64,000 bases of DNA from Ulva prolifera. Lineage: Eukaryota; Chlorophyta; Ulvophyceae; Ulvales; Ulvaceae. Position 1 is the stretch's first letter. Each line of letters begins with the position of its first letter. Positions 6,247 through 41,965 of the stretch are shown here, one piece after another. The notes under the pieces are model-generated. The model was given only the letters and a program-made list of their open reading frames with translations. It was not told where the DNA came from and made no database searches. The stretch is from contig CM041196.1 of the NCBI GenBank assembly GCA_023078555.1, positions 9,566,985-9,630,984 of the forward strand, written 5' to 3'. The position numbers and the translations under genes are program-made.

Positions 6247-7966
6247 ATGAAACTCTGGCATGTGATCACCATCTCAGCCTGGTACATCCACGGCTCACCA
6301 GTGTCGGGACGTGAAGGCATGACCTTGGCGCTCACGGACTGCACAGAAGTAGGCAATGCAAGTGAAATTGTTTTCCACATGGCGCTCCGGCAGTCGCTGG
6401 ACGCATGCTACAGCGTCAGGAATCACTCGTGCGCTTTCACCGCCTGTTCTTCGACCACTGCGCTGTCAGCCTCTGTTAGCGACCATGTGACGAGGCGAGT
6501 ACTTTGAATCACAAACCATATTCAACCGTCGATGAAACACATCGTCCTCTGCGTTGTTCCATGCGTTTCCGCAAAACGGGCGATGCTCTGGCCTTAAGCG
6601 CAGGTTACAGCCTGGCGTACCGGCTAAACCAAAATGCTGCACGGGGACTCAGAAGACCAGATCGGTTGACTGAGTCTAATAAAACTCTATTTTACAAGAT
6701 AAAATGACTTTCCTTGCAGGGAAATTTCGTTTCACGACGTCATGCCTATGGCAGTCAATGAGCGCTCTCGGGTTACAGTCTGGTGTCATGGAGCAACTAT
6801 TGACCTACACAGCAGTATAGGGCTGCACTATATTTCTCCTTCTGGGGTGCTCGAACTTCACGGCTGCGGGATTGTTGATTCGCAGGACTCATCGTGTGTC
6901 AGCGCCAGCGGCAAGCCTGCGGGCCCTGCGATACACGCTGCAGGCTCAGGCAGCGTCCTGCTGACTGACGGCCAGATGCAACTGCGTTGCAAGGTACGGA
7001 ATCTCCAGACGACAGACTCATCAGCAGCACCGGCAGCAGCAGCCACCACAGCACCAGCATCATCTGTTACGTCCGTTCCCAGTTATGGGCACACGGCTTC
7101 CACTAGCCTGCTCCTCCTGCTGAAATCAGCCATAAATCTGCTTCAGCACACTGGCTTCACCAATTCAACAGAGCAGAAATGTTGCGACAGCTCATGGTCG
7201 GTGCTGGTGTGCCCACGAGGCTGCCCTCCTGTAGCAGCACAGCTTGCAGACGACCTTAACATCCTGCCTGGATCCCAGTCAAATCGCTTCTCATGCCGCT
7301 GTTGATGTCTATCCACATCTTGAAGACATGCAGCAACTCTCGATTTGCTTAGCAAGCAAGTGCATGTCAGCAATTGCGAGTAGGTTTCCACAGTCACCTT
7401 CCTCACTGACTCAGCATCCGCGTGGTCACTGAACGCCGGTAGACCTCCATGCTGACGCCGAGGGGAGTCTGAAACTGGCACGCGCTGTGCAGCTCCCGGA
7501 ATAGTGATTACCATGTTTCGTGCCACAGTTGGCACCTTGAATGGCTGTGCTGTAGGACGGGCTGAACGGCACGAGCCTGCTCCCGGAAGAAGCCATGCAC
7601 GCTGTCTCTGCAAGCACCCTGGTCAACACACCTGCAGCCTCCGCACAGCAAATCCTCAACGGCTTCCTCCACATCTCGAGGCACCCGCCACCATTCCGCA
7701 TAGACAGCGAGCCAGCAGCCCCACTCATTGAGCTGCGGAATCAAACCGCCTGGGCCGCCGGCAGTGCGCCCGCGGCGTCCGCGGCCATATCCGCCGCAAG
7801 ACGCGTGGCCCATGCATGTGGCGGGGCTCCGCCGGCGCCGGTGCTCGTCCACAGCGCCGCCGCAGCGCGGGCCGCCGCGGACATCTGCATGCGGGCGCCG
7901 AGTATACGTGCAGCCGGATCGGTGGGTTCCTGGGGGGTGCCGCTCATCGCCTGCATCCTATGTACG

Positions 7967-7999
<33 letters not shown>

Positions 8000-10900
8000 T
8001 GGGGCGCCGCCTCCTGACGTCAGTGTCTGCCTGTGGTAATTTTGCACTGCTACCCCGCTCGTCTGTGAAGCCATGCTACAGCTGTTTGGATGGGTAATCG
8101 GCGAACTTACTAATCACAGAAGCCGGGTATCGGGGGTGACAGCTGTGACAGCTGTGACAGCTTGTGTGACGTGGCCTGCCGCATTCCTAATGCTCTCCCG
8201 GGCGCCGTGCACTGCCGCAACGCGGTCACCGAAGCCGCTGCCGTGTATGCCCACAAAGTCCAGTGTCGAAGCCCCTCCTAGCTGCCGGACTGCTCCGCAG
8301 CATAGCGCAAGCACGTGCGTCCATGCGCAGGTTTCTGCGGGGCCGTCGCGTGTGTCGCGCTTTGCATGCGCTGGCGCAACGCACGCTACGCGGACCTTGA
8401 CCGGCAGCCGCCCTACAAGACAAGCAGTGCCGGCAGCCCTGAGGCGACCCCCGCGTCCCCTCCGCAACCCTCTGAGAGCGAGGTGGCGCTGGGGGACTGG
8501 ATCACGGTGCCGCTGGCGCCGTTGGGGCCGGAGAGCCCCAACGTGCCAGCGCGTACGAGCGCGGACTCCCGGTGCGAGGTGCCGGGGGACCGGCGGGAGC
8601 TGGAGAAACGGCTGCAGGAGGCAGACGCGCTGCAGCGGCTGGAGCTGGGGAAGGGGAAGGGGGCCGGCACGGGGGCGGCGTACGCACAGGCCGGGGAGCC
8701 CGCGTCGGCGAGCGATGGCTTTATTCCGCCGCTCGCAGTGCCGGCGATCTGGCCGGGGGGCGTCGCCGCCAGCTCCGCCGTGGCGGCCGCGGCGGCGGGC
8801 GGAAGCGGCAAGGGCGCGCTGTCCGGGGTGACAGCTGTGAGCGACGGCGATGGGACTGGCCGCGTCGCGGCCGGACCGGGGGTGGCGGGGGCGGAGTCGC
8901 CGGTAAGCACGCGCGGGCGCGCCTCGCAGGGGCGGTCGAAGTCCCTGAAGTCTACCGTGCGGAGCACGACCGGCCTGCTGCCGGGCCCGGGGGACAGCAC
9001 AGGGGGGGTGCTAGCGGGCCTCGACAGCACGCAGTCCCGCGGCACTTCCGTGAGCAACTCCGGCACGGCGTCGCTGGTGCAGGAGAGCGTCGCGGCGGCG
9101 GTGCGGAAGCTGCAGGAGCGGCTACAGGAGGACCTCCAGGCGGACCACCTCCACCTGCACGCCGTGCTGGGGCGTGGCGGCTTCGGCATCGTGCACCGCG
9201 GTGCGCCCCCCGCATGCATGGGCGCCATGCGTCATCACCACCGCTGCCTTTTTTTTTAAGGCTGCGTCCGTACCGCTGGTCGTGCACTGCACGCAGCGGC
9301 CATGCACACGCATTTGCCCACCGCGGGTGAGAATCAATGTGTGCTCAGCTCATGTGTTACAGCTGGGCCACGGGTGAGAATTTCGCGCCGCTGGGTGCGC
9401 TGCATATCAGCGGCCTGCTCTCTCTGTGTGGGAGGCAGCCCCCGCACAGCACCTGTGCCGGACGCGTGTTGGATCCGGAGCTGATGGCCGTCATGCATGT
9501 CAACTGTCACCGTCACTGGCACATGTGATTCGCTAGCCGCGCTCTCGCAGCGGTGGTGCAAGCGCCTTTGTCCATCGCGGGAAAGCATTCCTCTTGTTTC
9601 TCGACTTGGGGCCCGTCCATGCTGTGTGCTGCGCGTGCAGGGGAGTGGAGGGGCCTGCCGGTGGCGATCAAGACGATGGACTTCCGGGCGGACGGCCCGA
9701 ACAGCGTCGCGGAGGACACGGCGCCGCTCGCGCAGGAGGCCGCCATCGCGATCAACCTCGTGCACCGCAACCTCGTCGCGACGTACTACACCGACGTGCG
9801 CCAGGTGCGTGACACCCCTCCGCCCCCGGCCGTTTCGATTTGGCCTCACTTGGGTCATTTCGATCCGGTCACGTTTGAATCAGACACCTGCGACGCATCG
9901 GGGCTGACTCCTCGTAACTGGAGCCAAACAACATCAAGTACTCATGGGGTGCACGGGCCCTACGCCGCAGCACACACAGCACGCCTAGCCTACACAGCAC
10001 GCAGCGCGAGAGCCCGGCCGTTTTCAATGCTGTCGCGCGTGTGTGTCTGTCGGTTCGGCTGTGTATGCATGGCGTGCTGGGGGTGTGGGGCTGTCGCGCC
10101 TTTTGAATGGGGGCAGTCAGGGCCAGTGTGAGGCAGAGCTGTGGCTTGCAGTGCCACAGCAGAGAGTGGCTTTCAGCTGGGCAGGCTTGTGGGCAGGCTG
10201 CTGACTGCTCCTTGCTGACGGTGTTCACGGCGGCACATGGCCCTTCTTACTAACATTAGCTGAAAGCACTGTTCGACCGCACCGAGGCTCTGACGTGGCA
10301 CATGTGTGACAGCGATGAATCACCTGTGGTGTGCGGTGGTGAGGATTATCAGAGAGCCTGACTGCTGATGCTCAGGTGGTGCATCAGTACCCCCTGCAGG
10401 GGGCCCCTGCAGCTTTTCCTTGCTGCTCCTGTGGCTGCAGTCGCCCGTGCAGTGACTAGAGCTCAAAGCGGCCCATGCACCACTAGTCACCACAGCAGCC
10501 CATGCATTCACTAGCAGCGAAAGTAGTCAAACTGCACAGTGCTAGTTTGGGCACGAGTGGTAGAGTGGTAGGTGACGAGCGCACGCCATGAGTCACAGGC
10601 TGCAGCAGTTTTCTCAGCCATCTGGGCTGTCAGGCAGTGTTGGGTCGCTTTGCAGCAATTTTTCAGGGATGGCACCCAAAAAATAGACCTGGATTCTCGG
10701 AATTGTTCCATGTGATCGGGCCCGATGACCCAACGCTGCTGTCAGGTGCCTGCCTGGCCGCCACAGTGGGCGGTGTGCCTTGCAGGCTGCATGCAAATGA
10801 ACGCATTGGACATGTGCTGTTTCGGTGGTGTCTGACGCCGACAGCCGCACAAAGCCGGTCCTCTTCTGACATGCACGGCTGTTGCCGTAGGACTAGCTGT

Positions 10901-12190
10901 ACATGTCAAGAGTAGAAATGCACAGGTACGAGGACATCAGGCAAGTCCGGCGCTTCAAGCTCATCACCAGCCTGGCCGTCGCATGTGTCTCGTCCTATCA
11001 CCAACTTGGAATACAACAGGGTACACACCTGCTTTGCAGGTCGCCTTAGCACGTGGTCATGCAATTTGCCTGCAGGCGCAAGTCACATCGACACTGCCCC
11101 GAATGAAGTCGTCACTCTGGCGTCCGACATGCCGTGCATGCATGCATGCAGGTTGACGATGGAGGGGACTCCCAGGAACAGAACTCACTAGCACCCGCAC
11201 CGGCCACGGCCACGGCCACGGCGGCGCCAGGGGCGCTGCTTCCGCTGCTGCGCTTCTACTTGGTACAGGTGCGCAGCCCCTGCTATCAGCGTCGCTTCTC
11301 TGCGTCCCTTCGCAATCGCTGATCCGGTCGACTGCACCTGCGGCCTCAGTCCGCGCCTGCGCTTGCGCTTTTGTTCATTTGCAGTGGAGATCCTCCCGTG
11401 TCCCTGACTGCGGTCAGCAGTGTGCTGTTAGAATTGCCCGCATGCTCGTAGCATGGGTGAGGGTGCAAGAGCACGATGACATTCCGCGGATCCAGTCGAC
11501 CTTTCAACAGACACCAGGCCGGCCACTGGACACCACCAGGGTTCCAACATGAGGATGAGGTATGGCTGTGTCACGGTTTTGCCACCAGTGTTGGGTCGCT
11601 GTGCAGCATTTCCAGGGCTGCCACCCAGAAATTAGACCTGAGTATTCGGAATTATTACATATGATCGAGCCCACGACCCAACACTGTTTGCCACAGACGT
11701 GCCACGGCACCGGGCATGGATGCAGCGGCTGTGACAACACTGCGAGAGTAGCTTATCACCACTGCTCATGCCGGTGCAGGAGTACTGTAATGGGGGCAGC
11801 CTGCGGGATGCGATCGGCCTCGGCTTCTTCACCATTGATGTCATGCCGCGTCGCTGGGGGCCGATCATGATGATCCTCGGCGATATCGCGGCCGGCATGG
11901 CGCACATGCATGCGAAGCGTATCTGCCACGGCGACCTCAACCCCTCCAACATCCTCCTCAAGGTGCGGCCCCGGCTGCTGCTCTGATCTGTCCGTCCCTT
12001 GGGGTGCCCAAGTGGTGAACATTTGATCGAGGCCGGACACTTGCTGTTTGGGGGGGGGGGGGGGGGATCCTTCAGTAATACGTGCGCAGCACACAGCCGC
12101 CCTCAATGCCCCCGCTTCCCCCACTGCTCCCGCTGAAGCTGCACTCGTATGAAGAGGCATGTTCAGCTGCCTGAAATGGAGTATAGCCAG

Positions 12191-12224
<34 letters not shown>

Positions 12225-14605
12225 AACGCATATATCATGCACAATGCTGAATGATTGCCATGTTCGGTCTCTTTCAAACTGGAGGATTTGTGTGGCAGAT
12301 GCACAGCCTGTGGCATCCCTAGGCTGACCCCACAGATACCTCATTCATGCACCACCATGATTACGTCTCTTTTGTAACAAAACCATGATCACGTCCACTG
12401 CACCACTGCACCACTCGTGGACACGTACAGCAGGCCTGGGAACAAGTTCCAGGGTGCAACACCTACCTGCATGACCTCTGGAGTGATGCAGTGTCATCCA
12501 GTTGCAGTCTGAAGCCATTGATCGTCCTGTCCTTGCAGTGACCACGCCCTCGCATTGATCACCCGTCACAGTAGCATCACCTGGCGTCAGACGTAACGTA
12601 ACGGCAGCACGCAGCTGCCTGAAGACGGCATAAATATGCATGGCGACTGTTGTACCGTCGGGCAGGTACAGAACGCGCAGGCGCATTCACCTCGGTGACG
12701 GCCTGGGAACCGTGAGAGCTTGACCCATGCGCCCTGCGCGAGGTCCTTGCCATACGTGGCCACGCGTGGTGCTCGATGAATTCATCCTGGCTGTGCCACC
12801 ACCATGTCGCACTGCGCCCCATGCAGGGCCCTGCAGCTGCGCGCCGACGGTTACCACCGACTCGCTAGCTTTCACCACCATTCAGATTTGCTTTACTGTG
12901 TTTTACCACGCCGAGACCTCACCCTATGTCACAGAGGAGTGAATGGGCGTATGCAAACACGGCAACATGTTGCAGAGTCTCTTCCGAATCAACAGCCACA
13001 CACGCACGTCCACGCCACAGCAGCGCACGCACTCACTCCGTCGTTCACACGAACACACGTCAGATCGAGCTAGGCACGTAGCCGCATCCAGCCAGGTGCT
13101 CGCTGGCCCACAGCCCCTCCATCAGACGCGCTGCCTGGCCGATGGCAGGGTGCCGTGCAGTTCGAGGCCGTGGCGTGTTCGGACGTCCGAGAGGCGCTGT
13201 CGCAGAGCGCTGTCGTCGCGAAGCTGACCGACTTCGGCATGGCGGCGCGGCTGCGCGACGGCGAGCAGTACGTGGCGAACGTGCGCCAGGGCACGCCCTT
13301 CTACATCGCGCCCGAGGTGGTGCGGGAGCACCGGCTGCACACAGCCAGCGACGTGTACGCCTTCGGCGTTATCATGTGGGAGGTCATGCGCGGCTGCTTC
13401 TCATACACGCGCGGGTGCGCTCCTCTCTGCATCTGCATCTCCAGAATCATGACGATGGGCTTCGAGGAGCCGGTGCTGCCGGACTGAGGCACGGGCGCCG
13501 CTGTAGTGTGGCCTTGTGCATGTGGCTGGTGATTCGGGCGAGATTTTTTTGTTTGGTCTGCCAATTCCCGTGCACTGTTCTGTAATAAAGATGGCCACGT
13601 AAGAGAATACATATCATATCACATGATGTGAATTTGCAAAGCTGCTTCACATCATATCTCTGGACAGCGGACTGAGCCTTACGAGTTGCGAGTTTCACGG
13701 GCTTCGAAGCAGGATCTCTCGCTTGCTTGAATTGTGTGGGTGTAAGCTAGCTTGAATTGTATGGCGGGATGCATGTGGACCACCGCAGGTGCAGTGCAGT
13801 GCAGTGCAGTGCAGTGTGGGCTGCTGTGTGTCACACAGTGCTCAGGGTATGGGGGCTTGTGTGTGTATGGCTGTGCGGGTGCGGGGTGTGTTGGTATGTG
13901 CATGGGTGTGTTGATATGTGCTGCGGTTCCTGCGGTGTGTGTTGCTGTGCTGTGCGTTGCGTGTTGCTGGTTGCTAGTTGCGTGTGCGGTTCCCCCTGGT
14001 TGTTGCCCATGCTACCTGCCTTGCTTGTTTTGTCCTTGTAATTCCAGGGCAGCTTCTCATCCCCCTTGTCACAGCAACCTTGTCACATCATCTGGCGCTA
14101 TATGCATGGGCAAAGATCATGTTTGCTGACTGGCTAATCCTATATAAAGACTCTAATCAGGTATAAATAGTGTATGATGGCAACTACCACTGTGTTAACA
14201 GATTGAACAGCTAGTAACAGAACTGTAGCTACATAGTTGCTGGGGCCTTAAGAGGAGTGGGTGTCTGCCTGCAGTCCCCCACACTCCCGGCACCAAGCGC
14301 GCAGGCCCACATCTCCAAGAGAACCCCCCCCGGCCGGCGCCCCCGCCGACGCCGACGAGGCGCAGGACCAGCGGAGCCGCGAGCCGCCGCGGCGCAAGGC
14401 CCTGACGCGGCAGCCGGACTTCCCCGGCCTGCCGTCGAGCGTGCCGCTGACGTACACGCTCGCGATGAAGGCGTGCCTGTCGCGGGAGCCGCGGGAGCGC
14501 CCGACGTTCCCGCAGCTCCAGACGATCTTCGTGGACCTCAAGGATGAGGTGGCGCGCGGGCACTACATCAACGGCAACGGCCGCGCTCAGGTGCGCAGCC
14601 CCCCT

Positions 14606-14636
<31 letters not shown>

Positions 14637-16713
14637 GGTACTGCCGCGAATGCATGCGATCGCTTGTTAGCGTGCGTATGCTGGTGCATGTGTGTGCAGG
14701 TGCGCAAAGTAGCGCAGCCTCACCAGTGTCCGAGTGTGTGTGCGCTTCAAACCCTGTGCATCCCATCCGCTTGCTGGCTGGCAGGCGTGCAGTTGTTCGT
14801 ACTGTTGCTTGAGCCCGACCACGTACAACATGCCGAAGTATTCAGGCATCACAGATGCAGCTGTCCAGCCTGATCCTTACGGAGTCAGCGTGATTGCCAG
14901 TAACGTATTTTGTACTGTGTTTGTTGGCAATGAGGCCACTTTGCCTGTGATGCAGGGGAGCGTCGCAGCGCAAGGCATGCCATGTGACACGTACGAGAAC
15001 ACATGGGACCCGGAGGTGCCTGAGACCTCTGTCGACGGCGACACCGGCTCCCACGCACCGCTCTCCTCCCACATGCTGCGCTCCAGCGCACACTCCATCG
15101 TGTCCATGCTGCCATCCATTGCCAACATCGGCACTGACATCGGCACGGAGGGGATCACGGAGCCCTCCGAGTCGATCGCCGAGCCGGGGGGGCGGTCCGG
15201 GTCGATGCCCTTCTGCCACCCGCCGCCGTTCGGAGATCCGAGGCGCACGCCGGCGTTCCGGGGGACGCGGATGTGGGGCGGGGAGGCCGCGCGCGCAGTG
15301 CCGGCGGCCACCGGCAGCGACGGGTACGGCGCGCCGATTGCGTCGCGTGACCGCGCGACTTCCGCGCCGGCGGACATCATGGCGACGCTGTCAGTGCAAG
15401 GGGTCGCGGCGCGCAATACGCCCGTCACACAGCGCAGCGGCACAAGTACGCTCATCACGCCACGCCCCGGCCGTAGTACAGACCTTGACGACGGGGGGTC
15501 GCCGGGGGATGACTGGATACCATCGGTACCGCTCAGCTTGACTCAGGGTGTATACAGCCCCGGACGCAGTGAAGGCTCGTCGAGCCTAGATTACGAGGTG
15601 CGTATCTTTTCGCCTTCACATAGCACGTGAAGGATGTGAATGTAAGTGATTCTTGTTTTTTGCATGCATGCATGCATGTGCGTGTGGTGCCCCTGTAGAC
15701 ACAATACCGGATTGCAGGATACGGAGGTAGCGCGGACGCCTGACGGCCGCTTCGAGCTGCCAGCGATCGCGGAGCTCGCGACGCTGAGTCAGCGCAGCAG
15801 CGACGCGGGCGACACTCTGCTCGTGGCCGGGGTACAGTCCCGCGCGATGTCGGGGACGGCCGCACTCATCGCCGCCGGCAACGCCCGCGCGCTCGCCTCG
15901 AACTCCCACTCCACCAGCGAATGCCCCCCGCAAGACGCGACCAGCCTCACGGACGCGCCCTCGGACATGATGATCGACCGAGAGAGCTCCCTCGCCGACG
16001 CGGAGCCGCGGGGGGTCGTGCACAACCACTGGTCTGAAACCTCAACGGTGACTCTGCGGCGGACGGACAGCCAGCGGCGCGAAGCGGAGCGGGCACTCGA
16101 GGACGACAGCGTGGACCGCGGCGCCGCGGTGCACCCTGGCGGCGGGTCCCCGGACTTTACGGCGCTGCTCGGCGGCTGGCGCCCGGCGGTGTCCCCGCAC
16201 GGCGGCGCTCTCGAGCTGACGATGCAACACGAGCCGCCGACGGCCGCCGACGTGGCCGCTGCGGCCGCTGCCGCGGCGGGCGCCTCGTTCATGGCGCCCG
16301 CACCGTGGGCGCTGTCCGCGACGGCGTCCCACGTGTCCGTCCCGCTGTCCGCACGCACCATGGGCAGCGTGGAGGCGGCGGGGGGCCCTCGCCACATTTT
16401 TCTTGAGCGGGAATACGAACAGGCATCGCAGCGCGGCGACGGCGCGGCGGTGGCTGAGGGGGTCACCGACGGCCATCCGGGGGGGTTTGTCCGGCGGGGG
16501 GAGCTGGTTGGCAGTGGGCCGGGGGACTGTGTGGGGTACCAGCTGGACGAGGGGCCGCCCGGGGCAGCGTGGAATCAGCACACGGGGCCGAAACCGCTGC
16601 AGCTGGAGCCCTCGAGGCCGGGGCGAGCGTACCAGGACCGCTCGCGGAGGTCGGGCGCGGACACCGGCGGCCGGAGGCTGCGGGACCGTCAGGGATCGTC
16701 GCGGCGCACGTGA
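6247..16713 (+). CDS. Receptor-like protein kinase A, about 11 exons
   Basis: Predicted single-pass receptor kinase, about 1467 aa. Exons: 6247-6428, 6720-6993, 7556-7961, 8331-9200, 9641-9804, 11152-11268, 11780-11962, 13161-13414, 14275-14590, 14956-15597, 15718-16713; every junction keeps phase. Exon 1 (DCTE...ACYS) is assigned by similarity to paralogues B and C; its signal peptide is weak, so the start is the least certain part. Exon 2 encodes VTVWCHGATIDL...GVLELHGCG, a Cys-containing beta-helix-like unit. TM is about 279-300 (GVPLIACILC joined to FCGAVACVALCM across an intron), followed by a Gly/Ala/Ser-rich juxtamembrane region. Kinase: GRGGFGIV, VAIK (K588), HGDLNPSN (721-728; Gly replaces the HRD Arg), DFG (756), APE (782), DVYAFGVIMWE. 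A disordered tail of about 545 aa follows. Unlike B and C it has an extra intron after TDVRQ. Kinase activity is likely; ligand and pathway unknown. Confidence 0.82.
7967..7999 (+). repeat. C33 homopolymer just after a 5' splice site
   Basis: Kinase A intron 3 begins GTACG at 7962 and runs directly into 33 C residues. Confidence 0.9.
10635..10738. mobile_element. hAT-type MITE with perfect 8-bp TSD
   Basis: A 104-bp element with inverted ends CAGTGTTGGGTCG and GACCCAACGCTG. The direct repeat CTGTCAGG lies at 10627-10634 and 10739-10746. The 8-bp duplication and CAGTG termini are characteristic of hAT non-autonomous elements. It lies inside kinase A intron 5 (9805-11151) and has no coding capacity. 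Confidence 0.8.
11586..11686. mobile_element. hAT-type MITE with perfect 8-bp TSD
   Basis: A 101-bp element with ends CAGTGTTGGGTCG and CGACCCAACACTG (perfect 13-bp TIRs). TTTGCCAC is duplicated at 11578-11585 and 11687-11694. Located in kinase A intron 6, about 95 bp before exon 7. Confidence 0.85.
12050..12222. repeat. G17 and C32 homopolymers in one intron
   Basis: Kinase A intron 7 contains G17 at 12050-12066 and C32 at 12191-12222. The G run is the only antisense-oriented long tract found in an intron here. The two could pair as a long G:C hairpin in RNA. Confidence 0.85.
13838..14040 (+). mobile_element. Retroelement copy in kinase A intron 8
   Basis: GT-rich body followed by the family 3' block: GTGTGCGGTTCCCCCTGG, TTGTTGCC, GCTACCTGCCTTGCTTG and TTTTGTCCTTGTAA. 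Same orientation as the gene. I could not define a target-site duplication. A GCAGT microsatellite precedes it at about 13790-13817. Confidence 0.5.
14606..14632 (+). repeat. C27 homopolymer shortly after a 5' splice site
   Basis: Kinase A intron 9 starts GTGCGCAGCC at 14591 and reaches 27 consecutive C residues within 15 nt. Confidence 0.9.
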
Positions 16714-17999: not shown

Positions 18000-18076
18000 G
18001 GCTGGATCTCCATGGAGATCCAGCCACTATTTCGCACGGCAGATCACACGGCAGATTGCAATCTGCCATGCGAAAT
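18000..18076. repeat. Palindrome cluster
   Basis: A perfect 26-bp palindrome centred on CCATGG spans 18000-18025. It is followed by an interrupted hairpin with outer arms ATTTCGCA (18029-18036) and TGCGAAAT (18069-18076) enclosing the perfect 18-bp palindrome GGCAGATTGCAATCTGCC (18050-18067). Confidence 0.85.
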
Positions 18077-18140
18077 ATTAAAATATGCCCTCTGGGTGGG
18101 CACAGCTTTGCCATGGCAGGGATAGGCGCGTCGTGCCCAC

Positions 18141-18243
18141 CAGTGTTGGGCCGCCGTGCCGGATCATTTGTATCAATTCTGAAGATTAAGGTCTGATTTT
18201 CGGGGCGGCAGCCCTGAAAATGCTGCAAAGCGACCCAACACTG
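18141..18243. mobile_element. hAT-type MITE copy
   Basis: A 103-bp element beginning CAGTGTTGGGCCG and ending GCGACCCAACACTG, with internal GGCGGCAGCCCTG as in the 3.1-kb copy. No flanking 8-bp duplication is visible, so it is old or rearranged. Confidence 0.6.
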
Positions 18244-27200: not shown

Positions 27201-29516
27201 GCCCTGCAGCAGCGAACCCGGCAGCCCGGCCGCCGACGCCGACGAGGCCAGGGGCGCCCATGACATGCATTACGAGCGGCACCCAGCCTACCCCTCCCTG
27301 CCTACCAGCGTGCCCCTGACGTACACCCTGACGATGACGGCGTGCCTGAGCGAGCGGCCGAAGGACCGCCCGACCTTCAGCCACCTCCTCGTCATCCTGG
27401 AGGACCTGGTGCAGGAGGTGGCTAGGGGGTCATACATCAACTCGGACGGGACGCCGCAGGTGTGCTGTGCGTGCTGTGCTGTGATCGTGTGGGAGACCCA
27501 TGCTGGGCCACTGCGGCCGTCTCATGTGGATGCTTCGGGGCCAGCACCCTGACGCCTGTGGGGATCATGCTGGCGTGTGTACATGCATGCATGCGTGCCA
27601 TGCTTCCTCGCATGTGAATCGTGTCATGAGCGTGCGGGCGGGCGTTCTCGCATGCAGGCCTAGAGACAACGCCGGAGCACCGCTTAGGCCGCCCCTCATC
27701 GTTGCACGTCATCATTCACACCGCTGACTTCATGTCTGCAGGCGAGCACGGCCGTTCAGCGCATGCCAACAGAGGCCGTGCCGCCGCTGCCGATCCCCGC
27801 CAGGGAGCCCGTGCTGCCCCCCCGCGGCCCCCGTGGCGACCGCACCCCCTCCGGCATCCTCATCTCCCCCCGCGACGCAGCCTCGGTCGAGGCCGCCGCC
27901 GGCGCCGCGCGCCCGTCCCCGCGCACAGACGCCACCACCGTCTCCCCCCTCGCGTCTATGACCGAGGACACGTTTGATCCCGCCTTTGACCCCATAGCCA
28001 CCCTTCCCTCCAACTCGATGCCCCTCAGCCACTCGATGCTCATCTCCGGCTTCAAGAGCACCATCCAGGCGCTCTCGCGGCCGATGAGCATTCCGGAAGC
28101 TTCCGATGAGGCGCCGTCGACCATGCACAGCGGGCCGCTGCCATCCGCACCGTCCTCCTACGCGGCGCGATCCCACGGCCCCCCGTCCCACGGCCCCCCC
28201 TCCTCGCAGGCCATCCCCTCTCAGCCCATGCCGTCAGTCTCGTCAATGTCCCGGCCGCATGACAGCCCCCGCCCAGACCTCGCGTCCCCCCGCACCGGCA
28301 CGGCGTCCCCGGCCACAGCCCCGGCGTCGCCGCGGTCGCTGACGCGAGCGCCCCTGCCCACAACCTCGCCGGCGCGCTCCAGCGGCGCGGCGGCCTGCGT
28401 GCCCCCGGGCCTGCCCCGGCCGACCGCCGCGTCACCTCCGCTGTCCCCGCGGCCGGCGCCGCCGCACCAACGCCACATGTTTGCGGCCGCGGCGGCGGCA
28501 GGCGCACAGCCGCCGGTGCTGAGTCCGCGGCCCGCCGACGGCGGGGCCCAGCTGGATGAAGGGCCAGGAGGATCATCACACAGTGCGTCTCCCCTGTCAT
28601 GCTTGTTTTGTAGGCCTCCCTAACTAACATGGCCAAACACAGCTCTGGCGCACAGCAGGGAAAGCCTGTGCCTGTATGAACAGCAGAGCTCTGTGCAGTT
28701 TGGGACTTTTGACGTGACGAATGTCCTCATCTTGCTGCTGTCTTTTGCAGACCTCTGTGGCAAATCACAGCACGGCAGTTGACGCCTGAGTGCGCGAGTT
28801 CATGTACAGGCAGCAGCAGCTCGTCGTCCCACGCCCCACCGTCAGCCAGCGGCGGGAGCGCGGGAAGAACCCCGGGCGGCGGCAGGCGCAGCCCACTCAC
28901 CGGCTCCCCAGCGAACCTTGATGGCTTTGACTCGGCGTTTGAAAATGCCGCCGGGGCGAGCAGCAGCTTCATGGCGCTGCCGTTGCTCACTGCCGGCGAC
29001 CCCAGCGGAGATGGCAGCCAGATGGCCACCGTGAGCTTGTTCGCGACCGCATTGGGTCCTCCCCAAGGGGACGAGCTGCCAGACCCCGAGGCGGACGCCG
29101 CGCACGCGCGTGCGCGCATCCACGAGCAGAACCCTGCGGGCAGGGTGTGGCGGAGGCCGCCAAGTGCAGACACGGGTAGCCCCGCAGCTCAGGGGAGTCC
29201 TGGCAAAGGAACTCTAACGGGGCGGCGTGGTGAGGGCGCGTCGCCGCATGCATGCGCACGTGGGGGCGCCGATGATGGGGCAATCCGGAGCCGCACGGTG
29301 AGCAGCGAGAACACGGCTGGCGGCGGTGCGGAGGGGGTGCGGGGGGGTGCGCGCTCCAGCGCGGCAGCCGCGGCCGTAGCCGGGGCGGCGAGGGGGGTTG
29401 TTGACGGGGCCTGGGCGATCGACTGGGGTCTGGTGAGGTCTGTCACGACAACAAACGAGGAGACGTCCAGGCTTCTGCTGGGGCCTGGAGCAAATTCCTC
29501 GCAGAAGGGGCCGTGA
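21234..29516 (+). CDS. Receptor-like protein kinase B, about 10 exons
   Basis: Paralogue of A and C, about 1418 aa. Exons: 21234-21424, 23078-23363, 23732-24134, 24375-25235, 25609-25817, 26171-26353, 26629-26882, 27177-27459, 27742-28582, 28771-29516. Start: ATG at 21234 opening a signal peptide (FWVALLCASRSGLALA). Exon 2 has the beta-helix-like VDLSCGGRLL...GATLSMHGC. The TM (about 283-309) is assembled across a phase-1 intron: FLIGTLSVACV + ALVVIAGAIFIV, then RRR. Ser/Pro/Gly-rich juxtamembrane region; kinase GRGGFGTV, VAIK (K591), HGDLNPSN (700-707), DFG (735), GTPFYIAPE, DVYAFGVIMWE. The C-terminal tail is Pro/Ser/Ala-rich. The last junction (28582/28771) is the least certain; without it the frame stops at 28621. 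Cell-surface signalling is inferred; ligand unknown. Confidence 0.82.
22914..22996. mobile_element. hAT-type MITE copy (83 bp) with near-perfect TSD
   Basis: Ends TAGTGTTGGGTCG and GACCCGACACTG. Flanks CTGTCCGG (22906-22913) and CTGCCCGG (22997-23004) match at 7 of 8. Shorter than the other copies by an internal deletion. Located in kinase B intron 1, about 80 bp before exon 2. Confidence 0.7.
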
Positions 29517-32680: not shown

Positions 32681-32721
32681 ACGCTGATACAGAGGCGGGT
32701 CTTGTGTTTGTGTTTGTCTGT

Positions 32722-32815
32722 GGCAATCCAGCGATATGGCCGCGATACCACTGGATCTTCGCACATCGCACCGTGCAAGGAGCCAGTGGTATAGCGGCCA
32801 TATCGCTGGACTGCC
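32722..32815. repeat. Hairpin element, arms about 33 bp
   Basis: Left arm 32722-32754 begins GGCAATCCAGCGATATGG; right arm 32783-32815 is its near-exact reverse complement, with a 28-nt loop. The same sequence family forms a palindrome at 43772-43810, and a half copy lies near 45490. It sits about 110 bp past the kinase C stop codon, possibly in its 3' UTR. Confidence 0.75.
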
Positions 32816-32925
32816 GCATGTCCTCAACCCGTCCATGCGGCTGTAACACCACCACCAGATCTGGAGGCAAGAATTAATTGAATCAATTTTATGGGCTCAT
32901 GATTTTCTAGATAATTATACTAAAA

Positions 32926-35900
32926 CTAGTATAAATTCAGTAAATGTGGGAACCGGCTGCGCACCTCAGGTAGCGCGCCGCCCTCAGACGCCCAGAACGC
33001 ATCCTGCGATAGGAAGTCGACGCCGAGCAGGTGCGCCACGGTGCTGTGGAACATGGCCTGACCCGGCGCCTCCGCCAGCCGCGGCGCCATGCCGTTGCTC
33101 CCCGTCGACATCCCCTGATGCATCTGCAGCGCGCACGACACAGACATATCCGCCGCGGCGGCGCCCCCGGCCGCCGCCGCAGCCGCAGCCGCGGAGTCGG
33201 AGTCCTGGCTGTCCCCCGCGAGCGCCGCGACCGCGCTGAACACGCCCGCGAGCTGCGCGGCGTCGCTGACGGTCGTGTCTAGAAGGACCGCCCCGTCGCG
33301 GTGCCCTGGCAGCCACTCAATGACGCTGCCGTCGTCCTCGTCGGGGTCCTCGTCGTCGTCGGTGCCCTCCGGCGGGAGGGGCGGGAGGCTGCGGCGGAGG
33401 AAGCCGGAGGTGCTGCGGGGCCGCGGCAGCCCGAGGCGGAGCTTCGCGGCGGCGAGGGACTCCTTGAGAGCAGACTGGGAGATGTCGGCGTCGGTGTCGG
33501 GGTCGGGGGGTGCGGCGGCGGCGGCGGGGGAGGGGAGGGGGGGGCTGAGGGAGGCGAGGACGCTGCCGCTGGAGACACGATCGGTGGGCATGCCTTGGAC
33601 AGCCGCGCTCGCCTGCATGCGCGAAAGCGGCTGACATGAGAAACGGCTGCGCGAGCGGAGACATCAGAAACAATACTCCAGCAACCGAAGCGAGACGGGG
33701 GGGGGGGGGGGGGGGGGGGACTGGGCCATCATTCAGATGCGATGTCTTCCATTGCCGAGCCGGAATGCATGTGCAACACGGCACACACTACGATGTAATT
33801 CAGAACCCTTGGGTCGGCAGAAACGTGCACATATCCGACCGGACACCGCACGTGCAGGGGGCGGGGGGGCCCGCACCCCCGCAGGGGCGGCGCACCTGCT
33901 GGAAGCCGTTGGAGTCGATGTACGTCCCTGTGGCCACCTCGTGCTCCAGGTCCTGCAGGATGCGCATCACCTGCTCGAAGGAGGGCCGGTCCTCCAGCGC
34001 GGCACTCGTCGAGGCCTTCACCGTCAGGGTGTACGTCATCGGCACGCTGCCGGGGAGGTCCGGGAAGGCGGGGTCGAGGACGTAGGGTTGCCGGGTGGGG
34101 TCCGGGGGGCTGTCAGCGCCGCCGTCGGGCCTGCACAGCGCGCGGCGTGAGGCACCGGCTGCAGGGTGCGGGGAAGGCGGTCGCGCAACTGCGATGCCGT
34201 GCCGTGTGTGCTGGTGCGACCTCGCAGGCTCCCGAACCATGCAGCGATTGAATGGTTTGGGGGCAGCGAAAAGTCTGACTTCAGCCTATGCGCTGCTGAC
34301 ACATGGCCCCGACCCGTTGGAGATCTGCGTCAACACCTCGCTGCCATGCTGTCACCCTTGCAGGGCGCACTGGGGCGTCGGCCGCTGCTGCCGGGGATGC
34401 GGTGCGGACGGCCGCAGACTCAGGTATGCAGTGGGCGAGATTCCTGTGCCCTTTTCGGTCATTGCCCTTTCACTGATCCCGGTTTAAATCAAGCCGGTAT
34501 CGTACAGTGGGCGGACAGGTTCCGTGCTGTGCTGTGCTGTGCTGTGCCGAGGGCCGCACCTCTGCATGTACACTGGGCGGCCCATCATGAGCTCCCACAT
34601 GATGACCCCGAACGCGTAGACGTCGCTCGCGCGGTGCAGCTGTCGGCTGTGAAGGACCTCCGGAGCGATGTAGAACGGCGTCCCCCCCTGCGGGCCGCAC
34701 GCGTAGCCCTGGTCACGCGTCATGCGCATCGCCATGCCAAAGTCGGTGATCTTTGCGGCCGCGGAGCCGAGCAGCAGCGAGGACACGACGTCGCGGTGCC
34801 GCACGTCGTTGCACTGCACGCATGGGAGCCATGCGTTACTCAACGCGGGAATTGAGCTCACACACAGGTACATACGTGTAGTAAGTGAGCAGACGGAGGG
34901 GACATGGCGATTGGGAAGTGGGTGCAGGTGCGCAACGCAGTGCATGTGACGCATGCATGTGTCAGGGCGGACCTGGAGGAGGATGTTTGCGGGGGTGAGG
35001 TCGCCGTGGCAGATGCTCTTCTCATGCATGTAGCCCATGCCGGCACACACGTCGCGCAGCACGCTCATGATCGGCCGCCACCGCTGCGGCAGGTGGTGGG
35101 TGCGGAAGTAGCCGCGGGAGATCGCGGTGCGCAGGCTGCCCCCGTTGCAGAACTCCTGTAGCCACCGCACACGCGTCAGGCAGCTCCACGGAGTTGCAGG
35201 TCCGTGACGTCATGCTCGAGACGGCCGATGTGGTACATGCATGGGTGCAGGACTCCGCCACGTGCGCGCAGCTGCTAGCTACCTAAACTGTCACAAAATA
35301 TACCCAACGATAATGCTGGATATCGGAGGTATCTTATGATTCGCATCACTAACTACCAGTGCCGCACGAGGACTGCCAATTGTGCACAGGTGTAGGGGCC
35401 GCGCGCCTGGATGAGGTAGAGTTTGAAGACGTCGAGGCCGGCGCGGCTCTCCGCATCGACGCTGCACACGTCGGTTGCGTACGTGGCGACGATGTTCTGG
35501 TGCACGAGGTTGCTGGCGATCGCGGCCTCAGACGCCACGACGGCGGTCTTGCTCTCGCTGTCGCTGCTCTGGAAGAGCAGCGTCTTGATGGCCACCTCCA
35601 GCCCCCGCCACCGCCCTGCACCCACTTACACCACCCGCTTACCGCCACCCGCTCACACATGCGCGCTGATGCCGCTGGGATCGAACCACGCCTGAGCTCC
35701 GTGGCCACACAGACTCTGTGCAGGGGCCACAGCTCCGCCGAGGGGGCCAAGTCACCCTCGCAATGCCTAACCTGATCTGGGTCCGGACCCATTCACCCCG
35801 TGCGCTCGAGCGTATCAGAGCGTCCAAACTTTGAAGGAAGCGTTATGACGGGCTTATCAAAGAACGAGTGTGTGCGCACGTGTATGCATGTGTACGTCAG

Positions 35901-38900
35901 GCCGCGCGGAGGGGGGGGGGAGAAAGAGGGAAGGGAGGAGAGGGCGCACCATGGTGCACGGTGCCGAAGCCGCCGCGGCCGAGCAGCCCGAAGATCTGGA
36001 TGTCCTGGTCGTGCAGGTCGTGCCGCAACTCCCGCTGCAGGTCCCGGATCGCCATCTCGACGGCCGTCTTGACATGCGCGACCGTCGCCGCGTCCGCCGC
36101 GGGGCCGCCGCCGCTGCCGTCCCCTGTCCCTGCACGCATGCGCGAACCATTCGTCGGGCTCAGCAACAGGGGCCGCCGCCGATACACACACAGTTGTATG
36201 ACTGCCGCCTTCTGTCCAAGGACGCGCAAGAACATGCAGATGCAACCACACGGATACTCAGAGCTGCAGGACACAGCAACCACAGCCAAAGACAGCAAGA
36301 CGATTCCCAGGACACGTTGTGTGCAAATTGCCTGTACGTCACGTTCACAGTTGCCAGGCCGCTACCGGAATGCATTTATGGACTAAGCAGAGCACGGCAC
36401 GGCACAGCACAGCGCAGCGCACCGTCCATAGCATCACCCATCGTCGACCCGTTGTCCTCCGGGTCCGTGTGTGCCGCCGCCGGCGTCGCCGGATCAAGGC
36501 CCCTGTGGCCACCGCTGCTGCCGCTCGCGCCTGACGCCTCCGGCTCCAGCGGTACCGCATCCCCCGCCGCAGCCCCACGCACCGGCGCAGCCTTCACCGC
36601 CGCCAGCACCGTCTTGGCACTGAGGTGGTCCCCCCACGCAGACCACTGCTTCAGCGCCGGCTCCACGTCCATCGCCGCCGCCGCCGCCGCGGACACCTTC
36701 GGGGCCTCGAGCGGCCCGACGCTCACGCTGCCGACGATGCTCACGCTTGTGCTCGTGCTGTGGCTACCAGTGCCGCCGCCGCTCGAGCGCGCCGGGGCCT
36801 CCCGGCTACAGCGGCCGCCGCGGCTCGCGCCAGCGCTGCTGCGCCGTTTCCCCTTCCGAGCCCGTTTCGACGGCCCCGCCCCGCCTGCGCTGCCGCCGTT
36901 CCTGTCGTCCCGGCTGAGATCCGGGCCGCCGCCGAAGTGCGGCGTGGCCGCACCCTGAGGCTGCGCGGCCTCGGGACCCATCGGCGGCATCGCGAGGTGC
37001 AGCCACGTGTCATGCATCGCCATCGAGCTACCCCCACCCCCACCCGCATCGCCCGACATCCCCACCAGAGCCAACTCTGCGGGCGGGAGCCTGACTCTGT
37101 GGCTAGAGGGGGCCCGCGCGGATAGCAGCGGCGACACCGCGTGCGCCGTCGCGGAGGTGCTGATTACCGAGGGTGGGTTCAGCGCGGCCGATTCGTCGTC
37201 AGCGGTGCCGGCCATGGACGCGGTGGGAGCTTCATGCGATGCGACGCGGTTCCGCGGCGGTGCGATCACGAGGTGGACGTCGGCGGGGAAGGGTTGGCTG
37301 TGGCCGGGGGCGTGTGTGGGGGTATGTGGCATGTGGCCGGCCCACAGGGCGGGCTCCGGGCGGTGGCGGAAGAAGCATGCAGCGCCGAGGCCGGCGACGG
37401 CAACTGCACATACAGCAGGGGGGGGATACTGATGCACGCTGACTTTCGCACCAGACTGCATGGAGGTCTCTGTGCGAGGTAGTGAACAGGATGCTGCGGA
37501 GGCAGGGTTCTTGGAAGAACACGGCATCAAGCACCAGGCGGATGGCTACATGATATATGTATCTAGTACACAAGAACTGCTTTGACATTCCCGGACTGGC
37601 CTCTCCAGTGTGGCGTCACGAAACACAGGTTCTGGATGCGATGGGGTGGGCTCAGGATCTGCCAGAGCAGCTGACGTGGCTCGCAGTGTGCGGCAGCCAG
37701 AACAGTACTACAACCGGGCAGAGCGCCACAGCGGCATGCATAGCTCCGTACCGAGGCTGAACACTACCACCAGCGGCTGCCAGATGCGTGCAGCGCCGCC
37801 GTTCCCGGCCCCGCCCTCAGACATCCCCGCCGGGGAGTCTATGGCCTCTGCGGCCAATGGCTCAGCCGGGACCTCCCTGCTGCCGGCGCCTACCGGACTC
37901 GCGAGCGCCACGCGCGGCTGCGCCGGCGGCCTCGGCGCCTCCGGTGGCGGCACCTCGTTCACGTCAAACCCCTGAAGTTGGACGCCGTCCTGCACGGCGG
38001 ACTTCGCCGCGGAGACCGCGGCCACGGCCGCGTCGGGGTCCGGCCCCGCCCACAGCGCCGTCGAGATGTACGCGTACTGCTGGCCGAGGTGGCGGGGGAG
38101 CTCGTAGAGGCGGAAGGTGCCGTTGAGGAAGAAGATCGCGGTCGCGGCGCCGGCGCCGGCGCTGTGCACGGGCGACGCGATGAACGCGGCGCGGGGCTGG
38201 TACAGCGCCAGGCTGTAGACCGGCTGCAGCTCGGAGATAAACTGCACCGCATGCTGCTGTGTATTGTCGACACGATGCGCTTGGCTTTGATTTACAAGCA
38301 CGAGGGCTTGTCTCCGGAGAATCAGCCGTGAGGGTCGGGCGGCTGGAGATGTGGCTGCAGTGGCACCTTGCCAGGTGCACGGCGCTGCGCTGCATGCACC
38401 ACGGCGTGTCCATGCATGCAGCCACACGCGTGGATCCGGTGAAGCGTCTCTGCAACGATCAAGCGCCGGGCGCGGGCGCGTGCGCGTGCGCTGCGGTGGG
38501 CGGAGGCTCACACCGTGTCGCGCAGGCGCGCCTCGCACTCCCGCATCTCCACCGTGATGTTCTCGCCGGGGCCAAACACCTGCAGTGCGGCATCGCGGAC
38601 GGTGCGGCCGTGCGTTATGCTGGGCATGGTGTCCACGAGGCAGCGCGCAAGGCGCAGCGTGCCTCCGGGGGCAACCGATAACGGGCCGGTGCTGCCATGC
38701 GTGAAGAGCTTCGCGCCGCGGCAGTCGATCGCCACATCAGCGCCCTGCGGCACCGCGGCCGCCGGCAGACTCCAGAGTGAGATTTCCCTGTAGCCACACC
38801 CGCGCCGCGTGAGTTCGCCGCACGCTCCCCGGGCCCCGGCTGAGCGTCTGCTACCTGCTCCGTGTGGGGGCAGTGGCGGACAGTGGAGACCTCGCCTGAT

Positions 38901-41900
38901 GCATGGTTAGCATGCATTGCGCACGGCCGCTGTTTTTCGTCGTGGCAATTGTGTATATGGATCCTGTAAGGTCCACTCACATCATATGCACGTATACATC
39001 ATGAATGGCCGTTTCAGCATGACCACAGCATGTGAATTCAGGTTGCTGTGCACGTTGTCAAAAACCACCAGTTAAAAAAACGCATCGCTGCAAGGGGTGA
39101 GGTGGGCCGAAACCGCGCCCGTTGGTGTGACTGTCTGATAGCACAAAACAGCGTACACATCATACAAGCGTGCAGCGGGCGCTGACGAACACCGGCTGAC
39201 TGGCCACTGCCGTAGTCTCCCGCACGGGCACGGCCCTCGCAGGGTGTCTAGTTCTGAGATCTGAGGGGGTTCCGGTAGTTCCACAGAGGCCTCTCTGCTC
39301 CCCGCAAGAAACGACGGCTCGTCGGCACATACGCCATCAGCGTGTGACGTGGCCATGGTGCGGCGTGCGCATATGTGTGCTGTGTGCTGTGTGCTGTGCT
39401 CGGGTACGTTGACATCCACTCGCAACAAACATGGCACCAGATTGCACAGGCTCACACTCGCCATCGATGGTTTCTCCCCTGCAGTGCTGCCCGGCCCGCA
39501 GTCTCTGTCTTTGTAATACAGGCTCACACGACTGTATGCTAGGGCACCAAACACATGTTCTCTTCTTCTTAAGGCATCGGAATCAACAGCATCCACTGAT
39601 AACGGACACGGTCGTGCGTGTGAAGTGCCCTGGGAGGACAGACAACGACGGAGCCCCGCCCCGGCGGAGCCGCCGCGGCCCTGACGCATGGGCAGATGTG
39701 CACAGGGTGCCGTGTCTAGTCAGCGGCGGGCTCACGCGGCGCTTGCGCTGCCTGCGGCTGTGGTGTGAGCGCATTGGGCTGGGGCAGAGGCAGTGTTCTC
39801 GCTGTTGTCGCGGTGGCACCCGCTCCGCCGCCTTTGTCCTTGCGACACACACACACACACACACACCTCCCGTGGCCGGCCTCCCAACAAATGACAGTGG
39901 TCGAGCTCGCAGACTCGATTGCATAGGGGCGCGGGGCCGGGCCACAGCGTGCATCTTCTCACGCGCGGAGAGGTGCGTAGATGCCTGTGTCAGAGTGTGT
40001 GCGGGCCGCGCCCCACGGCCCGCACTGGGTCCCTGTGGGAGCCGCGTCCCGGCGGGCTCGGCCGCGATCGCCAGCACGGGAGATCACCAGCACGGGTCGC
40101 GGACCCCATCGGCACCGAGGCCGCCGGGATGCGGCCCCCACAGGGACTGGCGCGGGCCGCGCCCCGCGGTGGGCTCGGTGCCTGCGGTGGCGATGCTGCT
40201 GACGGTGAAGGGTTGCAAGCAGGCTGACGGTGCTGCTGGCAGTCATCCAGCAGTGGCATTGCTGACACGGCCGGCCGGTGCGCTCTGTGGATCAACACAA
40301 CACAGTTCTGCAATTGCAAGTGTCACTGCAGCCAGTGTTCAAGGAGAAGAATCGAACGCATGCGGACAGTGTCCACGTGGGCTGTTCTAGTCGGATTGGA
40401 CGTGGCGCAAGTGGATAGTGAGTGCCCTGGTAGAGTTGAGTAGGGCTATTCGTCGCCGGGGGACTCACTATGTGCCTTGCGACAGCTACCTGTGTGGCCG
40501 GTGCCGGCGATTGGGCTACCAGCTGCATGCATGTGTTTTTGTGGGCGGCTTCTGTGGAGCTGTTTGGAGATCAATGATACATCTGGTACGTGTGGGAATG
40601 CTTTGGACTGTGGTTTGGTCACCAGACTCTGGTGTTGATAGGTGCTGCTTAAATGAATGGCGCCAGTGCTCTTCTGTTCCACAGCCTGTGCGAGTGTAAC
40701 TTGCAACCGCACGGGAGCATATCAGAGTCACATGCGTCGAGCCTGACCTCCAACCGAGCACAGTGGAAGCTGTCATGCGACTCGCTCCTTCAACGCCAGC
40801 CTCGCCGTGAAGCAGCTCATCTGGCGACGCGTATATGGCATGCAGCAAGGGCTAGCCTGACCGACGGGCTCAGACCATTCCAAGCCTTGGCACGGCACTC
40901 ACAGAAAGCGAAAACAGCATCTGCCTGAGCCATGCTTTGCTCTGACGAGACCTCAGCATGCTCGCGCGCTGCCGACATGGTATGCAGAGCCATGCTGGTC
41001 AACGATCATGGCGCTGTGCACATTCTGCGCAGCGCCCGAGGCTGCAGCCTTCTGTCCCGGATTGGACCCGCTGATATCCAGGGAGCTACTTGAGGACGGT
41101 GCGAACTTTACTTGATAAGACGGTTTAGGTCAACGAGGGCGGGCGACTCTGTGTTCAGTCGTGATCGCCATCATGGTGGCCGTCAGCGCTGGTTGGTGTT
41201 ATTATGTGCATGCGGCATGTGGGATGCACATACGGACACGCTAGGCAGTCTACTGTAATTGAGTCTCTTGTACCACTAATTGTGTGCGCTTACGCTTTCG
41301 ATAAGAAGGCTGCAGAAACACTAGTCAATCGGTTGTCTACGAGCAAGCTGTGACCGGCTCACCGGAACTTGCGAAACACAGGCCAGTGCGCATGAACGGC
41401 GTCGATAAGCTGTTATCAGGCACCATGTGTTGTCAGCGCCTCCACTAGACGTCTGAATCGCTGTTGCCGATATATGCATGTTCGGCTCGAATGCAGCAGC
41501 TTGGCGCGACACTGAAGCAATGCCATTGTGAGAGGGCCCGTTTTGAGGCAGCTGTACAAAGCAACTTCTGAGCGGCATGTTTTCGTCGTTATCGATATTC
41601 CTGGGGGCGTCAGCGTAGCTGGTGACAACTGCGCGCTGCTACACATGCAGTGAGCATTCGCATGCTGAACGACGACATGGCAAGCCAGCCACAATAAAAA
41701 AGAACAGTATCCGGGAAGGACCATACTTTCCTCCGGTGTAGCACAAGCTCAAAGCCTCGGTCCCAGCGGCCTCGATCTGCGCCCTGAGTTCCTTCGCGTC
41801 AGGGAATGCTGTGCAGTTAGGACTGCCTCCTGTCTCTGACACTGGCTGGCACCTCACGAGCGCTGCAGGGCAGCACACAAGCGACAGAAATAGTATCCGT

Positions 41901-41965
41901 GATGCAAGCTGCTGCACTGCCGTTTTTCCGTTGATTGCTACGAATCGCCTAGGCGGACGTGACAT
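32926..41965 (-). CDS. Receptor-like protein kinase C, 10 exons
   Basis: Third paralogue, about 1243 aa. Exons (minus): 41965-41727, 38787-38514, 38241-37752, 37403-36423, 36129-35950, 35615-35407, 35155-34973, 34813-34560, 34130-33896, 33612-32926, all in phase. N-terminal hydrophobic segment ILFLSLVCCPAALVRC after a basic leader suggests a signal peptide. Exon 2 has VAIDCRGAKL...GGTLRLARC, beta-helix-like. TM about 327-347 (PLVVVFSL + VAVAGLGAACFF) across a phase-1 intron. The juxtamembrane region is split into two exons, unlike A and B. Kinase: GRGGFGTV, VAIK (K732), HGDLTPAN (841-848, non-RD), TDFGMA (D876), APE, DVYAFGVIMWE. Intron 6 uses a GC donor (CAG|GCGCGC). A tail of about 230 aa contains an acidic cluster DDDEDPDEDD. 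Intron 1 is 2.9 kb. Membrane signalling role inferred. Confidence 0.85.
33697..33719. repeat. G23 homopolymer (C23 in gene sense) in kinase C intron 9
   Basis: Reads C in the direction of kinase C and lies about 85 bp before the acceptor of the last exon. Confidence 0.9.
39840..40190. repeat. GC-rich inverted and direct repeats in kinase C intron 1
   Basis: A CA run (39845-39866) is followed by imperfect inverted arms at about 40021-40055 and 40121-40155, sharing GTCCCTGTGGG and TCCCGGCGG. A direct repeat GCGGGCCGCGCCCC occurs at 40001 and 40152. No protein is supported, although long open frames cross this GC-rich tract. Confidence 0.6.

Follow-up and report, generated by a model that had tools for sequence, protein, structure and literature searches.

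The nearest known counterparts in build are the receptor-like kinases (RLKs) of the RLK/Pelle type in land plants together with their receptor-like proteins (RLPs), which, like the algal genes presented here, feature a signal peptide, a variable ectodomain, one transmembrane (TM) helix, a cytoplasmic kinase of the tyrosine kinase-like (TKL) group and tandem expansion. A non-RD catalytic loop is also present in several immune RLKs of land plants. MLK4 and CTR1, TKL kinases of the MLK/Raf-like type, are not known to be receptors of the signal peptide-ectodomain-TM-kinase layout. According to a survey of 350 genomes, in which RLKs were defined by TM segment plus kinase, seven named ectodomain classes comprise almost 70% of the surveyed RLKs, and an LRR-RLK expansion is reported for green algae (PMC10834447). 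A review tabulates 1-4 RLKs per listed chlorophyte, a very small number of receptor kinases (PMC10868138). Receptor-like TKL subfamilies 2-4 of the oomycete Phytophthora infestans are described as lineage-expanded, with signal peptide and TM segment, and as not close to plant RLKs (PMC3019232). Here, we analyzed a stretch of 64,000 nucleotides of the green alga Ulva prolifera (C1:9566985-9630984, hereafter the window), harboring three genes, A, B and C, which very probably encode receptor kinases with predicted signal peptide, ectodomain, one TM helix and kinase in one reading frame. The best explanation of the whole, and a fairly probable one, treats them as neighboring paralogues from a family of TKL kinases of receptor type, which has about 31 members that are dispersed over the genome and in part arranged in tandem.

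The frames of A, B and C were spliced at GT-AG junctions, and the later kinase exons and tails were read from open frames. Signal peptides were predicted by sequence inspection only. The resulting gene models are as follows.

6247..6428, plus: A exon 1, signal peptide and first Cys pair (DC...SEI...CY); open frame, donor GTGCGC picked for phase 2; A is in the signal-profile training set
6720..6993, plus: A exon 2, ectodomain module 1 (C-H-G ... LELHGC)
7556..7961, plus: A exon 3, ectodomain module 2 (ELRNQTAW) and first TM half
8331..9200, plus: A exon 4, second TM half, low-complexity juxtamembrane region and kinase P-loop (GRGGFG)
9641..9804, plus: A exon 5, kinase VAIK exon; 3' end approximate
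11780..11962, plus: A kinase exon with catalytic loop HGDLNPSN
13150..13417, plus: A kinase exon with DFG and APE; limits approximate
14278..16713, plus: A kinase C-lobe exon and long low-complexity tail, several exons; limits approximate, C-lobe match 14381-14599
21234..21424, plus: B exon 1, signal peptide and Cys pair; phase 2, donor GTGTGT
23078..23363, plus: B exon 2, ectodomain module 1 (C-G-G ... GATLSMHGC)
23732..24128, plus: B exon 3, ectodomain module 2 (RIRNMTIWCG) and first TM half
24375..25235, plus: B exon 4, second TM half, juxtamembrane region and P-loop; acceptor is one of two candidates, frame-keeping
25609..25817, plus: B exon 5, VAIK exon
26171..26353, plus: B exon 6, catalytic loop HGDLNPSN
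26590..26883, plus: B DFG/APE exon; limits approximate
27180..29516, plus: B C-lobe exon and low-complexity tail, several exons; limits approximate
41727..41965, minus: C exon 1, signal peptide and Cys pair; phase 2; C is in the signal-profile training set
38514..38787, minus: C exon 2, ectodomain module 1 (C-R-G ... GGTLRLARC)
37752..38241, minus: C exon 3, ectodomain module 2 and first TM half
37003..37403, minus: C exon 4, second TM half and start of the juxtamembrane region; 3' end arbitrary
35950..36129, minus: C P-loop exon
35407..35615, minus: C VAIK exon; apparent GC donor
34973..35155, minus: C catalytic loop exon (HGDLTPAN)
34559..34813, minus: C DFG/APE exon; 3' limit approximate
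32925..34130, minus: C C-lobe exon and tail; limits approximate

Splicing resulted in 632 codons from five exons for A, 709 from six for B and 468 from four for C (the fourth ended arbitrarily), each with zero stops. The exon-end phases are common to the three genes (exon 1, phase 2; exon 2, phase 0; exon 3, phase 1), exon 4 ends in phase 1 in A and B, and the third intron splits the TM helix in all of them. A GTGCGC donor directly follows the P-loop exon of C. TM scores in a 19-residue Kyte-Doolittle scan of the final splices were 2.78 (A), 2.37 (B) and 2.57 (C), with the basic stretches RWR, VRRR and RHR, respectively, behind the helix. Of 20 upstream stretches scanned with a signal-exon profile, 16 passed its inclusion threshold, ten being its training set and six new, B among them; L004, L043, L046 and L055 stayed below. 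B exon 1 was located in this way (E 0.0014), the ten training genes not including B, at a site with a donor in phase 2. An earlier reading of the window, made from the sequence only, had proposed a shared signal-peptide exon, an ectodomain exon with C-x-G near its start and a second conserved block later, a TM helix and a kinase domain for each gene. These elements were all recovered: the exon-1 call was right for A and C and holds for B through the independent profile, the C-x-G occurs as CHG, CGG and CRG, and the second block as SGVLELHGC, GATLSMHGC and GGTLRLARC in A, B and C. Its outer boundaries were exact as well, A beginning at 6247 and C at 41965. Behind the VAIK exon of C (window 35406, minus) the donor reads CAG followed by GCGCGC, the intron being probably of the GC-AG type.

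Extension of the analysis to the 88.9 Mb genome (44 contigs) placed these genes in a larger context. The genome is that of a green-lineage phototroph, with 38 matches to the antenna family PF00504, the best one aligning full-length with PDB chlorophyll a/b antenna chains. A search with the kinase of C yielded 119 exon matches, from which 31 family genes on C1, C2, C3, C4, C6 and C10 were sorted by hand, leaving out other TKLs; the counts are lower bounds. The three-gene family of the sequence-only reading is therefore an undercount, A, B and C being real members of it, and a purely local family of three was rejected. The unbiased figure for linkage comes from the ectodomain of C alone, since the consensus was partly learned from kinase-upstream stretches: eight matches were obtained outside C (E up to 10), five of them, A and B included, just upstream of a family kinase, against a chance expectation of ~0.01. 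The consensus search gave 32 matches (E up to 10), of which 25 precede one of the 31 genes by 1.6-5.2 kb (median 2.6 kb) in the same orientation, no gene being hit twice; at E up to 0.001 the linked fraction was 19 of 22, with a chance of kinase linkage of ~0.001 per match at random places. With an iterated profile, the ectodomain exon was found upstream of 18 of 24 scanned family kinase genes, three of which (L004, L006 and L010) had been fetched through their ectodomain match. No exon appeared in the scanned stretches at L045, L048 (weak, E 0.023), L049, L053, L054 and L056; for the genes of L054 and L056, a later genome search found candidate exons beyond these stretches. At C4:7206935-7208587 (L046), module 1, module 2, TM helix, juxtamembrane region and P-loop lie in one open frame of 551 codons, which probably runs through an in-frame poly-C intron between the modules. 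As controls, the 10 kb upstream of the unrelated TKL gene C3:11274 (L042) reached at best E 5.3 when scanned with the three-gene profile and at best E 0.18 after iteration, and the remainder of the window E 0.26 with the three-gene profile.

As expected of a TKL-group protein kinase, spliced C matched PF07714 (PK_Tyr_Ser-Thr) with 134.6 bits (cut-off 23.1, E 5e-39) and PF00069 (Pkinase) with 132.8 bits (cut-off 31.7, E 2e-38). VAIK, HGD, DFG and APE motifs are all kept in A, B and C. Motifs were counted in the 22 genes with loci (9 of the 31 have no locus to read): the catalytic loop is a non-RD HGDL in 18 of 20 genes with this exon read, no HxDL being found in C4_1560 and C4_7204, and DFG and APE are present in 21 of 21 genes read. 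The nearest PDB sequences are MLK4 (E 2.4e-22) and CTR1 (E 8.2e-21), followed by ULK, MAP3K9, RIPK3, BTK, B-Raf and others. No plant RLK is among the best 60 of 599 PDB neighbors, which may set the family apart from the land-plant RLK/Pelle kinases; the MLK/Raf-like match carries no information on the ectodomain. An unrooted tree of the kinases from 19 family members and a further TKL, 20 sequences in total, pairs B with C (bootstrap 90) and separates the three window genes from the remaining 17 (bootstrap 84), as local duplication would give.

Substitution rates were determined in a tandem array of four genes at C2:4316971-4350028 (L034/L064/L059, L028/L065/L060, L026/L066/L061 and L031/L067/L062). 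Within their kinase exons, nonsynonymous divergence (dN) was 0.03-0.06 and synonymous divergence (dS) 0.18-0.36, with a ratio (omega) of 0.11-0.18 in all six pairs. The ectodomain exon showed a dN of 0.14-0.64 and a dS that could be used for a single pair (0.34, omega 0.41); for the remaining five it ranged from 1.39 to infinite, near or at saturation. Across seven genes, ectodomain identity was 0.12-0.48 in 20 of 21 pairs and 0.73 in the closest, compared with 0.53-0.95 for the kinase. The interpretation of the sequence-only reading, a lineage-specific receptor family with the fastest change in ectodomain and tails over a conserved kinase core, was supported in part. Third codon positions have a G+C content of 0.89-0.96 for the kinase and of 0.57-0.94 for the ectodomain; as kinase dS is low even between distant members (0.33-0.87), the dS contrast is partly codon bias. 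The kinase exons of the array share 84-100% DNA identity, and the introns between them are diverged (aligned identity 0.67-0.81, z -0.0 to 13.5 versus shuffles), which speaks against gene conversion in long tracts across the kinase half. With the kinase G+C values given above, the low dS may be due to codon bias and purifying selection. Positive selection on the whole ectodomain exon was rejected, considering the omega of 0.41 and the saturation elsewhere. From these rates, the kinase is under stronger constraint than the ectodomain, and neither gene conversion nor positive selection is claimed. The P-loop exons of the array are a case of their own, with 98-100% DNA identity, a dS of 0.03-0.085 over 35-43 codons and zero amino-acid changes despite the diverged neighboring intron and mostly saturated ectodomains; codon bias, exon-limited conversion or another constraint are candidate causes.

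Between A, B and C, module 1 (exon 2) is 28-31% identical, or 24-28% on another alignment. A three-exon profile built from these three genes only, with E values computed for 4131 open frames, retrieved copies at L004, L010, L044, L052, L006, L047, L043, L051 and L050 (E 1.1e-12 to 4.5e-5) and at L046 (E 0.0025); L009 and L005 denote the same places as L052 and L051, respectively. In 20 module-1 exons aligned by the iterated profile, both cysteines are invariant, a proline occupies column 12 in 18 and a glycine column 43 in 16. Exon 1 contributes an additional cysteine pair flanking an SAxxI motif (C...SAxxI...C), and module 2 (exon 3) a short motif recognized by eye (A, ELRNQTAW; B, RIRNMTIWCG; L051, YEIFNTTAHCG; L052, RFRDTVVWCG), a weaker form of which occurs in C. 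Pfam returned only sub-threshold matches to unrelated families (CD52, E 0.21; PF04273, E 0.018), and when the complete ectodomains of A, B and C were searched, accepting E values up to 10, the sole match was again the unrelated PF04273 (E 0.061), below the cut-off. Unlike the ectodomains of land-plant RLKs, those of A, B and C match no LRR, WAK, lectin, LysM, malectin or DUF26 model. The oomycete kinases are similar as lineage-expanded TKLs with signal peptide and TM segment and differ in lineage and in extracellular parts that are short, long (364 aa) or LRR in the published examples (PMC3019232).

In line with the suspicion that this ectodomain is undescribed, it has no match above threshold in Pfam, and among the results listed by text searches of an open-access literature subset no description of the family was found. 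Volvocales and other green algae possess predicted proteins with a beta-rich outer region, a TM helix and a TKL kinase, which lowers our claim of novelty. The chances are about even that the family is a local member of a broad chlorophyte TM-TKL class already contained in genome annotations and never written up, a view compatible with the best explanation given above. These predicted proteins, the few RLKs counted per chlorophyte (1-4; PMC10868138) and the remainder of RLKs beyond the seven named ectodomain classes (PMC10834447), where such genes could sit, fit this view; the empty literature search counts against it. In either case, ~31 receptor-type kinases with a Pfam-unmatched domain provide a concrete candidate set for the sensing of walls, partners and microbes by these algae and a profile applicable to any algal proteome.

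In respect to the fold, the sequence-only reading had suggested a beta-helix. No ectodomain matched a beta-helix Pfam family. The 38 listed fold matches are mostly solenoids, as judged by title and known folds. A low-confidence structure model contains strands at residues 17-21, 43-47 and 78-82, each followed by a short strand, with a spacing of 26 between the first two rungs; the invariant cysteines are 27 residues apart in C, and module 1 displays the rung-like pattern G-x-L-x-L-x-x-C. A solenoid is somewhat more probable than not, and pectate-lyase-like right-handed beta-helix proteins (PL3, PL6, tailspikes, ice-binding proteins) are among the nearest known systems. Several observations weigh against it: the low confidence of the model, the weak PDB matches of the profile to a viral E2 glycoprotein (E 0.018) and to many antibody light chains (E 0.13 and up), and fold matches to SV2, pentapeptide-repeat proteins and EGFR-family domains, which render even the solenoid class uncertain. 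A correct receptor architecture with a small disulphide-bonded beta-sandwich or another beta fold is therefore a minority option, estimated at about one chance in four, which the rung and cysteine spacings, the rung-like pattern and the majority of solenoid matches argue against. To the L domains of EGFR-family ectodomains no sequence relation was seen, and any likeness would be convergent. An immunoglobulin-like ectodomain was rejected, its matches starting only at E 0.13; the cysteine spacing is also unlike that of an immunoglobulin domain.

Seven of the 32 ectodomain matches have no family kinase downstream. Two of them, L051 and L052, were inspected; four of the other five have E values above 0.05. 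In L051 (C9:2646430), the signal exon is accompanied by module 1, by an exon resembling module 2 and by a hydrophobic C-terminal end, possibly a glycosylphosphatidylinositol anchor, with no cytoplasmic tail. In L052 (C6:4691544), it is accompanied by both modules and by hydrophobic segments, one of which precedes basic residues. The best match to the family kinase in the 9.9 kb stretches of both reached only E 0.28. With putative exon chains, both are candidate kinase-less family members and, in this, a further likeness to the RLK/RLP pairing, making such an arrangement testable beyond land plants.

Beyond domain order, linkage, motifs and constraint, which are apparent from the sequence, we infer the following scheme. 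Module 1 would form a short right-handed beta-solenoid with rungs of ~26 residues, whose variable surface would bind a ligand outside the cell, the likeliest candidates being polysaccharides or glycoproteins from the algal wall or from neighboring microbes; a wall or surface glycan in particular is plausible at somewhat over one chance in three. Binding would join two receptors, or a receptor and a kinase-less partner, whereupon the MLK/Raf-like kinase would trans-phosphorylate and feed a cascade of the mitogen-activated protein kinase type. The candidate kinase-less copies at C9:2646430 and C6:4691544 may serve as decoys or co-receptors, the part that RLPs play alongside the RLKs of land plants. 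Through tandem duplication, in which the ectodomain changes fast and the kinase stays constrained, sensing would widen at constant output. As a tentative proposal, which we hold with less than even confidence, this could amount to a chlorophyte-evolved RLK/RLP-like surveillance system apart from land-plant RLK/Pelle, consisting of a new solenoid ectodomain on ~31 MLK/Raf-like receptor kinases plus kinase-less surface proteins, with ectodomains diversified by tandem duplication and kinase exons near-identical, in one array even at synonymous sites.

Instead of sensing foreign or wall-damage cues, the family might function in the recognition of gametes or of self, as in mating, adhesion and the assembly of colonies or walls, which we regard as improbable, at roughly one chance in five: fast ectodomain divergence over a constrained kinase is also typical of recognition proteins, and beta-helices act in adhesion too; 31 genes on six contigs resemble a sensing repertoire more than a mating locus. 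That ectodomain and kinase exons are separate neighboring genes and the receptor a reading artefact is very unlikely and was rejected, since 25 of 31 loci keep order, strand and spacing, the intron phases of A, B and C match including the TM-splitting intron, and one continuous frame spans both parts at C4:7206935-7208587, even granting that ectodomain copies without nearby kinase occur, that the architecture is deduced from sequence, and that phase agreement is partly by choice, the exon-1 donor of A and the exon-4 acceptor of B having been selected among candidates as frame-keeping.

Several introns of the receptor genes contain long poly-C or poly-G runs (~7970-8000, 12050-12066, 12190-12223, 14604-14631 and 33698-33717). 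A ~100-base repeat resembling a miniature inverted-repeat transposable element, with inverted ends AGTGTTGGGTCG, sits in introns and between genes (~10636-10740, 11587-11685, 18142-18242 and 22915-23000); genome-wide, 40 places were scored at 90-100% identity, the query counted first, from 851 first-look candidates. On the minus strand at ~1800-5410, open frames read by eye resemble a pyridoxal phosphate-dependent acyltransferase of the serine palmitoyltransferase or 5-aminolevulinic acid synthase type.

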